A stretch of 64,000 bases of DNA from Pseudacidovorax sp. (GTDB lineage: Bacteria; Pseudomonadota; Gammaproteobacteria; Burkholderiales; Burkholderiaceae_C), in contig NZ_JAGOPN010000007.1 of NCBI RefSeq assembly GCF_017991995.1, positions 186,001 to 250,000 of the forward strand. Reading direction: 5' to 3'. Positions 41,729-60,982 of this stretch are shown here, piece by piece. Under the pieces are notes generated by a model that was given only the letters and a program-made list of their open reading frames with translations, did not search any database and was not told the origin of the DNA. Position numbers and translations under genes: made by a program. Every line of letters begins with the position of its first letter. Positions within the stretch are counted from its first letter, which is position 1.

Positions 41729-43636
41729 TCAACGCTTGCTGGAGATGTCGTCGGCGATCTTTTGGGAGAACGCCTCCACCGACATGACACCGAGGTCGAC
41801 ATTGCCTCGGGCGCGCACCGCAACGGCACCGGCTTCCTTTTCCTTGTCACCCACGACGAGGATGTAGGGAAGCTTTTGCAGCGAATGCTTGCGTATTTTA
41901 TACGTGATCTTCTCGTTCTGCAGATCGAGCTGCACCCTAAACCCTTGATGGCGCAGCGTTTTCGCAACTTCCGCAGCATAGTCGGCCTGCGCATCCGTGA
42001 TGTTCAGCACCGAAATCTGCACCGGCGCGAGCCAAACAGGCATGGCGCCGGCGTGGTGCTCGATCAGCATGCCGATGAAACGCTCGAGGCTGCCGACGAT
42101 GGCTCGGTGCAGCATCACCGGATGGGCGCGGCCACTCGACTCCGTCACATACTCGGCGCCCAGGCGCTCGGCCATGTTGAAGTCCACCTGCATCGTGCCG
42201 CATTGCCACTGGCGGCCGATGGCGTCGCGCAACGTGTACTCGATCTTGGGGCCATAGAAGGCCCCATCGCCCGGGGCGATGACGAAGTCCACGCCCGATC
42301 GGCGCAGCGCTTCCATCAGCGCGCCTTCGGCCTTGTCCCAGAGCTCGTCGGAACCGATGCGGTGCTCGGGGCGCGTGGCCACCTTGTAGAGGATGTCCGT
42401 GAAGCCGAAGTCCGCATACACCGTGAGCAACTGCGACGTGTAGGCCACGCATTCCTCGAGGATGTGGTCCTCCGTGCAGAAGATGTGGCCGTCATCCTGC
42501 GTGAAGCCGCGCACACGCATGATGCCGTGCAGGCCGCCCGAGGGCTCGTTGCGGTGGCACTGGCCGAACTCGCCGTAGCGCAGCGGCAGTTCGCGGTAGC
42601 TGCGCAGGTCGCTCTTGAAGATGAGCACATGGCCGGGGCAGTTCATCGGCTTCAGCGCGTAGTCGCGCTTTTCCGACTCCGTGACGAACATGTTCTCGCG
42701 GTAGTTCTGCCAATGGCCCGTCTTCTCCCACAGGCTCTTGTCGAGGATCTGCGGGCCCTTCACTTCCTGGTAGCCCGTGTCCTTGTAGACCTGGCGCATG
42801 TACTGCTCGACGGCCTGCCACAGGGCCCAGCCCTTGGGATGCCAGAAGACCACGCCGGGTGCGACGTCGTCGATGTGGAACAGATCGAGTTCCTTGCCCA
42901 GCTTGCGGTGGTCGCGCTTCTCGGCCTCCTCGATGCGCTGGATGTACTGATCGAGTTGCTTCTTGTCGGCCCAGGCCGTGCCGTAGATGCGCTGCAGCTG
43001 CTCGTTCTTGGCATCGCCGCGCCAGTAGGCGCCGGCCAGCTTCGTAAGCTTGAAGACCTTCAGAAAGCGCGTGTTGGGCACGTGCGGTCCGCGGCACATG
43101 TCCACATATTCCTGGTGGTAGTACAGGCCCATGGCCTGCTCGTCGGGCATGTCCTCGACCAGGCGCAGCTTGTAGTCCTCGCCACGGGACTTGAACACCT
43201 CGATCACCTCGGCGCGCGGCGTCATCTTCTTGATGACGTCGTAGTCCTGGGCGATCAGCTCCCTCATGCGCTGCTCGATGGCGGCCATGTCGTCGGGCGT
43301 GAAGGGGCGCTCGTAGGAGATGTCGTAGTAGAAGCCCTCGTCGATCACCGGGCCGATCACCATCTTTGCAGTCGGATAGAGCTGCTTGACCGCATGGCCG
43401 ACCAGGTGGGCGCAGGAGTGGCGGATGATCTCCAGCCCTTCCTCGTCCTTCGGCGTGATGATCTGCAGGCGGGCATCGTGGTCGATGAGATCGCTGGCGT
43501 CCACCAGCTTGCCGTCCACCTTGCCGGCCACCGTGTTCTTGGCAAGACCGGGGCCGATGGACTGGGCCACTTCGGCGACCGTCACGGGGCTGGGGTATTC
43601 GCGGCGAGAGTTGTCGGGGAGCGTGATCTGGATCAT
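41729..43636 (-). CDS. thrS: Threonine--tRNA ligase
   Basis: A 635-residue class II synthetase. Domain order: TGS (about 1-62), editing domain (about 65-225) with [16 protein letters not shown] zinc/editing histidines, catalytic core with motif 2 and GxKxMNCPGH-type zinc site ([13 protein letters not shown]), and the C-terminal anticodon-binding domain. ATG 43636 gives [15 protein letters not shown]. It is preceded by a Thr-rich leader ORF and an intrinsic terminator, indicating attenuation control. infC follows 105 bp downstream. Confidence 0.98.
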
Positions 43637-43658
43637 GGAAAACCTCGGAGCGGAAAAC

Positions 43659-43685
43659 AAAAAAGCGCGGGGGTGAGCCGCGCTT
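43659..43685 (-). terminator. Terminator in thrS leader (candidate attenuator)
   Basis: On the minus strand AAGCGCGG, loop CTCACCC, CCGCGCTT, then a T-run (TTTTG). It lies only 22 bp upstream of the thrS ATG, so it would stop transcription before thrS. The 5' arm (GCGCGG, 43678-43683) can alternatively pair with CCGCGC at 43720-43725, giving a candidate antiterminator. Confidence 0.82.
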
Positions 43686-43727
43686 CGTGCTGGATGAGCG
43701 AGCCGGACCTGCCGGCGCTGCGCGGGC

Positions 43728-43790
43728 CTACCGGCCGCTTCCTTCGGAAAGCGGACCGAACGATTCGGTGCCTGTAGTTCGCGGTGTCAT
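43728..43790 (-). CDS. Putative thrS leader peptide (Thr-rich)
   Basis: A 20-codon ORF, ATG at 43788-43790 and TAG at 43728-43730. The peptide begins MTPRTTGT, with Thr at positions 2, 5, 6 and 8, and ends GSGR. A purine-rich GAGAAAGG lies about 10 bases upstream. A hairpin (CCGCTTTCC / GGAAGCGG with one bulge) overlaps its 3' end and could act as the pause hairpin. Enrichment in Thr codons ahead of an intrinsic terminator and thrS is the layout of ribosome-mediated attenuation: stalling on Thr codons when charged tRNA-Thr is scarce would favour the antiterminator. Confidence 0.75.
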
Positions 43791-43965
43791 AACCAGATTG
43801 CCTTTCTCGCCCTTGTTGGTGGACAGACGGTGAGCCGGCGATTGTAGCGGGCCCTCGCCTCGAGGCGCCGATGCACAACGCACTGCCAAAAAGGATGAAG
43901 GCGCTTTCGCAGGCCACAAGAGGCCGCGCCAGTCCAGCGCGCGCCCAAACCCGCACGCCAGAAGC

Positions 43966-43994
43966 AAAAAGGGCCCGGCCAGTGGCCGAGCCCT
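43966..43994 (-). terminator. Intrinsic terminator of aceA
   Basis: On the minus strand GGGCTCGGCC, loop ACT, GGCCGGGCCC, then TTTTTG: a 10-bp stem with one G-T pair. It lies 27 bp downstream of the aceA stop. Confidence 0.88.
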
Positions 43995-44021
43995 GCTCCC
44001 TGAGCAAACCTGCTGAACCGA

Positions 44022-45353
44022 TCAGTGGAACTGCTCTTCCTCCGTCGAGCCCGTCAGCGCCTTCACGCTGGACGAGCCGCCCTGGATGACGGTGGTCACG
44101 TCATCGAAATAACCAGCGCCGACCTCCTGCTGGTGCGACACGAAGGTGTAGCCCTTCTCGCGCGCGGCGAACTCGGGCTCCTGCACCATCTCGGTGTAGT
44201 GCTTCATGCCTTCGCCGCGGGCATAGGCATGGGCGAACTGGAAGGTCTGGAACCAGTTGATGTGGATGCCGGCCAGCGTGATGAACTGGAACTTGTAGCC
44301 GAGCGCCGACAGGTCTTCCTGGAACGAGGCAATCTGCTTTTCGTTCAGGTTCTTCTTCCAGTTGAACGAGGGCGAGCAGTTGTAGCTCAGCAGCTTGCCT
44401 GGGCAGGCGGCATGCACGGCCTGGGCGAACTCGCGGGCGAAGCCGATGTCGGGCACACCGGTCTCGCACCACACCAGGTCGGCATAGGGCGCGTAGGCGA
44501 CGCCGCGGCTGATGGACTGCTCCAGGCCGTTCTTGACGCGGAAGAAACCTTCCTGCGTGCGTTCGCCCGTCAGGAAGGGCTTGTCGTTGGCGTCGTGGTC
44601 GCTGGTGATCAGGTTGGCAGCCTCGGCGTCCGTGCGGGCCAGCACGATCGAAGGCACACCCATCACGTCAGCGGCAAAACGCGCGGCGATCAGCTTCTCG
44701 ACGGCCTCCTGCGTGGGCACCAGCACCTTGCCGCCCATGTGGCCGCACTTCTTGACGGCGGCCAGCTGGTCTTCGAAGTGCACGCCTGCAGCGCCGGCCG
44801 CGATCATGTTCTTCATCAGCTCGAAGGCGTTGAGCACGCCGCCAAAGCCGGCTTCGGCATCGGCCACGATGGGCAGGAAGTAGTCGACGAACTCCGCATC
44901 GCCGGGGTTGATGCCACGGCCCCACTGGATCTCGTCGGCACGCTTGAAGGTGTTGTTGATGCGGCGGACCATGGTGGGCACCGAGTCGTACGCGTAGAGC
45001 GACTGGTCGGGATACATGGTCTCGGACGTGTTGCCGTCGGCAGCGACCTGCCAGCCCGACAGGTACACGGCCTCCAGGCCGGCCTTGGCCTGCTGCATGG
45101 CCTGGCCTGCGGTGATGGCGCCGAAGGCGTTGACGTAGCCCTTCTTGGCACCGCCGTTGATCTTCTCCCACAGCTTCTCGGCGCCGCGCTGGGCCAGCGT
45201 GTATTCGATCGGCACCGAGCCGCGCAGGCGGACCACGTCGGCGGCGCTGTAGCCACGCTTCACGCCCTTCCAGCGCGGGTTGGTCGCCCAGTCCTTCTCG
45301 AGGGCGCTGATTTGCTGGTCGCGGCTGAGTTGTTCGGTGATGGCTTGAGGCAT
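44022..45353 (-). CDS. aceA: Isocitrate lyase
   Basis: A 443-residue glyoxylate-shunt enzyme splitting isocitrate to glyoxylate and succinate. Catalytic loop KKCGHMGGK with the active cysteine near residue 200; substrate-binding WxTNPRWKG near the N-terminus and [12 protein letters not shown] near residue 320. ATG 45353 has GGAG nine bases upstream. The gene is monocistronic here (terminator downstream) and preceded by an AT-rich region with a palindrome and tandem ATAAGAC repeats, indicating specific transcription control. Confidence 0.97.
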
Positions 45354-60655: not shown

Positions 60656-60687
60656 CCGCCCGCGGTCACCCTCGGGTGGCCGCCAAG

Positions 60688-60856
60688 CGTTCTCAGGGCA
60701 GGGTGAAATTCCCTACCGGCGGTCATGGTGGAAGGCGACTTCCGCACGAGCCCGCGAGCGCCCGCCGCTGCAGCCTTGACGGGCCGTGGTGGCGGGGTCA
60801 GCAGATTTCGGTGCGATTCCGAAGCCGACGGTCACAGTCCGGATGAAAGAGAGCGC
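60688..60856 (+). ncRNA. FMN riboswitch (RFN element)
   Basis: The conserved RFN blocks appear in order: CAGGGCAGGGTGAAATTCCC TACCGGCGG at 60694-60722, GAGCCCGCGAGCG, GGTCAGCAGATTTCGGTGCGATTCC (in parts), GCCGACGGTCACAGTC and GGATGAAAGAGA closing near 60856. It binds FMN and would lower expression of the downstream lumazine synthase. The expression platform between 60860 and 60930 contains a GCGGCCAGG/CCTGGCCGC hairpin and a GCCG...CGGC stem followed by TTTT (about 60894-60927), a candidate terminator. Confidence 0.93.
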
Positions 60857-60982
60857 GAGATGCGGCCAGGCCCCTGGCCGCGTGCGGCGCCATGCCGTGC
60901 GCGGTCTGCGGGTCGGGCGCGGCTTTTCGTGCGTGTTCTCGATGCCCTGATTCAGGCCCACCCTTTGTTCAAAGGTAACACC

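Follow-up and report, generated by a model that had tools for sequence, protein, structure and literature searches.

A putative Thr-rich leader-peptide attenuator upstream of thrS in Pseudacidovorax and related beta-proteobacteria

The analysis of a 64,000-nucleotide stretch of Pseudacidovorax DNA, hereafter the window, suggests that the tRNA-synthetase gene thrS is controlled by a ribosome-mediated transcription attenuator based on a short leader peptide, and the probability of this reading is put at about 0.86. Such a leader would probably raise thrS expression when charged tRNA-Thr is short. Comparison over relatives supports a translated Thr-rich frame, a terminator and the competing pairings around them, and from these we infer ribosome stalling, masking of the antiterminator 5' arm (segment 2) at the leader stop codon, a switch operating in vivo and charged tRNA-Thr as its signal. 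Most sampled members of a beta-proteobacterial family thus appear to use a sensor for thrS other than that of E. coli, and their leader is conserved enough for an 18-nt string to find it.

Organization of the thrS leader region

The thrS gene (635 aa) occupies positions 41729..43636 on the minus strand of the window, as do the leader elements upstream of it; its ATG lies at 43636, and an ORF opening at TTG 43660 was listed too. Upstream of the leader, a -10-like box, TACAAT, is found at 43841..43846. A sigma-70 scan of 43600-44050 returned no full promoter. Boxes of the form TANDAT were present in 93 of the 121 family leaders described below, at a median of 46 nt upstream of the conserved core, against 7.6% of base-shuffled sequences.

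The purine-rich ribosome site that an initial annotation of this DNA had placed ahead of the leader ORF was recovered, with GGCGAGAAAGG preceding the ORF and the ribosome-binding region being read from the sequence as the purine-rich CGAGAAAGG (43801..43809). The ORF, described in that annotation as Thr-rich and 20 codons long, lies where it had been announced (43790-43728), ends at TAG and has Thr as residues 2, 5, 6 and 8, with both the frame and the Thr enrichment kept in the 121 leaders. Its start is covered by the 18-nt core GGTTATGACACCGCGAAC (43777..43794), which begins 4 nt ahead of the leader ATG, runs through base 2 of codon 5 and contains segment 1. Segment 2, GCCCGCGCAGC (43717..43727), is the candidate 5' arm of an antiterminator and stands immediately 3' of the leader stop codon; within it, CCGCGC (43725-43720) is complementary to the 5' arm of the terminator.

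This terminator, GAAGCGCGG-CTCACCC-CCGCGCTTT followed by a T run, spans 43686-43659, with a hairpin of -13.5 kcal/mol. Its 5' arm (segment 3, 43678..43686) and its 3' arm (segment 4, 43662..43670) were delimited by a terminator scan, which placed the hairpin at 43686-43662 and gave two sites in 43600-44050 against 0.6 expected. The T run (43659..43664) ends 22 nt before the thrS ATG, the distance that had been noted for the terminator at the outset. Further upstream on the minus strand, an 11-pair terminator-like hairpin (43994-43970) parts the thrS leader from the upstream ORF, which we take to be isocitrate-lyase-like. The window also holds an FMN riboswitch (60685-60858, 102 bits) and a tRNA-Asp, -Glu, -Ala cluster in two tandem copies (754-1432).

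In the proposed mechanism, RNA polymerase would start upstream of the leader, and the position of the translating ribosome would govern the fate of the transcript. With charged tRNA-Thr plentiful, the ribosome would reach the leader stop codon and cover segment 2, so that segments 3 and 4 would form the 3:4 hairpin, which is the intrinsic terminator. With charged tRNA-Thr short, the ribosome would stall at the rare ACA (codon 2), at ACT (codon 5) or at codon 6, segment 2, left exposed, would pair with segment 3 and so prevent the terminator, and thrS would be made. When the leader is left untranslated, segment 2 is predicted to pair back to the leader start region (1:2), and termination would prevail.

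Distribution of the conserved core

A family sample of 150 genomes was taken from the GTDB family of the window, in which a thrS match was found in 145 genomes and five were without one. Judging by its named relatives, this family is probably the large Burkholderiaceae/Comamonadaceae group. The core was called as the 18-nt GGTTATGACACCGCGAAC upstream of thrS with at most two mismatches, and by this definition it was present in 121 of the 145 thrS-bearing genomes and exact in 109, beginning 117-208 nt upstream of the gene. The other 24 genomes had no core at this cut and stand outside the 121, which indicates that the core is dispensable. In four of these 24 (L023, L146, L151 and L197), a terminator-like hairpin was seen by eye before thrS with the leader absent, a possible case of leader loss.

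Among the best 80 ThrS matches, listed as named loci, the core was found in 26, and it was present in 26 of the 28 listed Burkholderiales loci, L049 and L054 being the exceptions, and in none of the 52 listed loci from Pseudomonas and relatives or from Xanthomonad-type records. In the loci of Pseudomonas and relatives (L057-L110), a hairpin GTGRCC-TTTNGTA-GGGTCAC was observed adjoining the thrS ribosome site, with 48 of the 52 loci carrying it and the four misses being Xanthomonad-type. Its loop presumably resembles the tRNA-Thr anticodon loop, and the sequences suggest an E. coli-like ThrS autoregulation in this group.

When the search was carried to an order sample, the 18-nt string with at most one mismatch matched 18 of 200 genomes, five of them in the family of the window, and a thrS match lay downstream of all 18. 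A 17-nt core with at most three mismatches was found in 9 of 105 upstream loci from other families of the order, a set that does not count G156 and G231, which carry the exact core, and that also leaves out G114, a family genome of the order sample; the variants in other families include MTPLT and MRPPT. In a class sample the core was found in 2 of 185 genomes, both of the family of the window, and at these stringencies each matching genome of the order and class samples had a single core match. The core is thus distributed across the family and patchily in the order. In three loci (L241-L243) the 17-nt core stands unchanged amid AT-rich sequence, and by eye the leader ribosome site can pair there with a stretch after the leader ORF. 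Another locus, from a different family of the order (L295), has a distinct Thr-rich stretch, RTPTRTTTW, followed by a terminator-like hairpin and then thrS, which is perhaps an independent thrS leader.

Evidence for translation of the leader

Judged by its codon pattern over the 121 family leaders, the leader looks translated. The leader frame met a stop 4-22 codons past codon 5 in all 121 (median 8); the median for the two non-leader frames was 51 and 43 codons. From codon 6 to the stop, Thr accounted for 272 of 1114 codons (24.4%) in the leader frame, compared with 11 of 993 (1.1%) and 28 of 993 (2.8%) in the other two frames. The corresponding share was 4.8% in 37 ORFs of the window, a mechanical selection based on length and third-position GC. 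Each leader contains two to seven Thr codons, most commonly four; only two are present in nine of the 121 and likewise in several leaders of other families.

Codon 2 was ACA in 119 of the 121 leaders, and codon 5 was ACT in 107 and ACG in 14; in the 37 window ORFs, ACA and ACT make up 2.4% and 2.1% of Thr codons and are the two rarest. Ten changes were seen within the core codons of the 121 leaders, nine of them silent or ATG to GTG and one altering Thr2. In the ribosome-site profile of the same leaders, A was found at -11 in 115 and at -10 in 115, and G at -8 in 113.

Terminator, competing pairings and ribosome position

A terminator-like hairpin with a score of at least 14 follows the core in 120 of the 121 leaders, and the single leader without one was excluded from the 120 considered here. 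Conservation in relatives had been proposed as a check in the initial annotation, and both the Thr codons (121 family leaders) and the terminator (120 of 121) proved to be kept. The terminator 5' arm contains GCGCGG in 109 of the 120 leaders, a T run of at least five is present in 114, and the terminator ends at a median of 27 nt before thrS (range 15-95).

In the window alone, neither the 2:3 duplex (z +0.6) nor the 1:2 duplex (z +0.4) beats shuffles, and the leader as a whole gives no better fold than its shuffled versions (z -0.03), so that the argument was shifted to the relatives. When duplex energies were scored against dinucleotide shuffles of the spacer, the 2:3 duplex had a mean z of -1.38 over the 120 leaders, with z < -1.645 in 40 and shuffle p <= 0.05 in 31, and the 1:2 duplex had a mean z of -0.80, with 23 of 120 leaders passing by either measure. 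The best 2:3 site begins at most 15 nt from the leader stop in 103 of the 120, and the best 2:3 and 1:2 sites overlap in 114, as needed for a switch. The antiterminator (2:3) and protector (1:2) pairings therefore appear supported over the set of relatives and not by the window alone. The same division applies to the alternative pairing of the terminator 5' arm with CCGCGC that had been claimed from the window, which is supported over the relatives and not in the window taken by itself.

Unguided consensus folds were obtained for subsets picked by eye. In 23 of the 33 leaders with GTTCGCG, the fold gave CGCGAAC:GTTCGCG as the 1:2 pairing, a helix that never varies in these 23 leaders and hence offers no covariation. 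In 17 out of 20 leaders of another type, the fold paired AAGGC, in the ribosome site, with GTCTT and included start-codon pairs and CCGCG:CGCGG, with an unfavourable covariation term (+0.88). The pairing partner of the core thus seems to differ from one lineage to another. As for the hairpin reported at the 3' end of the ORF, it is present in the window (GGTCCGCTTTCCGAAGGAAGCGGCC, 43733..43757, -14.9 kcal/mol), but its region does no better there than shuffles (z -0.1), and as a set-wide feature it was rejected (mean z -0.23 over the 120 leaders, 28 below -1). In the subset of 23 leaders, four of the five pairs of the leader-stop hairpin have changes on both sides, with one to five broken cells per pair.

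The influence of ribosome position was modelled as the upstream pairing of segment 3 in a transcript ending short of segment 4, for three cases: a ribosome stalled at codon 5, one at the stop codon, and none. Over the 120 leaders, this pairing was 0.90 in the stalled state, 0.71 at the stop and 0.52 with no ribosome, against 0.77, 0.71 and 0.73, respectively, in shuffles; the window itself gave 0.94, 0.72 and 0.54. GC-rich spacers pair segment 3 well even when shuffled, as seen in the stalled state (0.77 versus 0.90 in the real leaders). For real-minus-shuffled differences the 120 leaders were thinned to 83, and the difference was +0.118 for the stall at codon 5 (67 of 83 positive, p 8e-9) and -0.152 with no ribosome (27 of 83 positive, p 1.5e-5), both p values being too small as relatedness is ignored in them. 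For a ribosome placed at the stop codon, the difference over the 83 thinned leaders was -0.025 (p 0.82); segment 3 was still predicted to be paired upstream (>0.5) in 104 of the 120 leaders, and only 16 of 120 cross the 0.5 level downwards on passing from the stalled to the stop state. In this model, the stalled and untranslated states act like those of a classical attenuator, and the stop state is not set apart from shuffles. The place of segment 2 at the leader stop codon, within 15 nt in 103 of the 120, fits masking there.

Leader retention across two ThrS types

The leader is found over two types of ThrS. The ThrS tree was a quick ML tree of 80 rows with SH-aLRT support only, two of 81 ThrS rows being too short and left out, and in it the nearest rows to the ThrS of the window are from Pseudacidovorax. 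In a 39-row clade (support 100), the ThrS of Pseudomonas and Lysobacteraceae joins the window type found in Comamonadaceae and their relatives, and the usual ThrS type of the family stands apart in 14 rows (support 87), a topology suggestive of ThrS gene exchange between Comamonadaceae relatives and gamma-proteobacteria in either direction. Over the first 150 residues, the window type was defined by at least 80% identity to the window ThrS and the other type has 48-70% identity to it; the core was found in 13 of 16 family genomes with the former and in 108 of 129 with the latter. Either the leader was kept while the coding sequence was replaced beneath it, or the leader itself moved, and on the ThrS tree it needs several gains or losses, at least six of which are forced by starred branches. 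A leader that survives a change of enzyme would fit the sensing of charged tRNA better than the sensing of the enzyme. With two ThrS types beneath it that are 30-50% different over the first 150 residues, the leader provides a natural test of charged-tRNA versus enzyme control.

Alternative explanations

Other forms of control were weighed against the leader-peptide attenuator. thrS is commonly a T-box target in Firmicutes, which speaks for a T-box or another known riboswitch; however, there was no Rfam match, either for the leader region of the window at gathering score or for seven relatives up to E 1, and the Thr_leader model in particular gave none in the window at gathering score or in the seven relatives at E <= 1. 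This class of explanation was rejected on that ground and is given a very small probability. It could also be supposed that the ThrS protein binds its own leader RNA at the invariant core, as in E. coli, with the ORF being incidental or secondary. Like a binding site, the core is indeed near-invariant base by base, silent positions and the 4 nt ahead of the start codon included. Pseudomonas may have a control of a related kind, with the anticodon-like hairpin next to the thrS ribosome site that was seen in 48 of the 52 gamma-proteobacterial loci. Nevertheless, protein binding would leave the frame-specific Thr enrichment and the stops unexplained, the core of family members lies 117-208 nt upstream of thrS with a terminator in between, and one core is kept under two ThrS types (13/16 and 108/129), all of which makes this explanation very improbable.

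An equally poor prospect is given to a constitutive leader ORF and terminator, which would provide basal damping of thrS, perhaps with translational coupling, and no amino-acid sensing. Some core-less family genomes (L023, L146) appear by eye to keep a terminator-like hairpin before thrS, the ribosome-at-stop state was not told apart from shuffles, and many leader genes have been argued to be non-regulatory in the available text of PMC4833913. However, a leader of this kind would not be expected to confine its Thr enrichment to the translated frame and to favour rare codons, nor to show pairing that depends on the ribosome in the stalled and untranslated states, features that are consistent with the leader-peptide attenuator.

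Invariance of the core

The invariance of the core exceeds what attenuation needs. In the 121 leaders, the conserved stretch has sharp edges and takes in silent positions as well as the 4 nt ahead of the start codon; this profile is conditioned on the cut at two mismatches, yet 109 of 145 loci match exactly. Part of the invariance is accounted for by rare-codon choice and by the 1:2 pairing, whose partner varies between lineages whereas the core does not. The near-complete base-by-base conservation, together with the pairing of the leader ribosome site in the 1:2 state of one type, led to the idea of a second control layer at the core: ThrS, uncharged tRNA or some feature of the initiating ribosome would, as a trans-acting factor, recognise GTTATGACACCGCGAAC and gate translation of the leader ahead of the reading of its Thr codons; this proposal is tentative and considered unlikely. 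A DNA-level protein-binding site as the role of the core was disfavoured by the frame-specific coding signal. For rRNA, a conceivable pairing partner of the core, this assembly yielded no match. That the core is so invariant poses a concrete experimental question.

Comparison with known systems

Lopatovskaya et al. in 2010 reportedly described the attenuation of amino acid and aminoacyl-tRNA operons, a possible forerunner that may list a thrS leader. According to the available part of PMC3766115, the attenuators covered by Rfam at the time were limited to those for His, Leu, Thr and Trp. In Burkholderia cenocepacia, 82 short 5'UTRs were attributed to processing or attenuation in the accessible sections of PMC5688073, whose account of 5'UTRs gives two tRNA-synthetase genes by locus tag. 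thrS is absent from the portion of PMC4176332 at hand. In the literature searched, much of it in excerpt, no thrS leader peptide was found for beta-proteobacteria, although one may already be in print, and 'MTPRTT' had no literature match.

In E. coli, the thr operon leader (Thr_leader, Rfam RF00506) is an attenuator, as are the trp, his and phe leaders, and all of them share with the thrS leader a short ORF rich in the regulated amino acid, a terminator and competing hairpins. The thrS leader differs from the thr operon leader in its predicted control of a tRNA synthetase instead of biosynthesis, in its lack of an Rfam match, in a start region that is near base-identical across the family and in having fewer regulatory codons than thrL is generally described to have. 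The E. coli thrS operator acts on the same target gene and is a textbook case of protein-mediated autoregulation, in which ThrS represses its own translation by binding beside the ribosome site, whereas here a translated Thr-rich leader and a terminator would take this part. E. coli pheST, in turn, has leader-peptide control.

Control by a leader peptide, acting on a tRNA synthetase or on paralogues of one, would be common to pheST, to the thrS leader and to the His leaders of bacilli, placed upstream of hisZ and hisS* in the available text of PMC2965389, although pheST and the His leaders concern another amino acid and another lineage than the thrS leader. A further parallel is the uORFC-8-2 motif upstream of cysS in Rhodobacterales, of which 145 unique examples are given in the accessible part of PMC8632094 and which is, as proposed for the thrS leader, a leader-peptide attenuator of a tRNA-synthetase gene with a terminator; unlike the thrS leader, it belongs to alpha-proteobacteria and carries a pair of Cys codons, in most cases codons 14 and 15 (PMC8632094). 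Attenuation of tRNA-synthetase genes by leader peptides is thus already known, and the thrS leader, unless already in print, would be a new member of this group, notable for its conservation.
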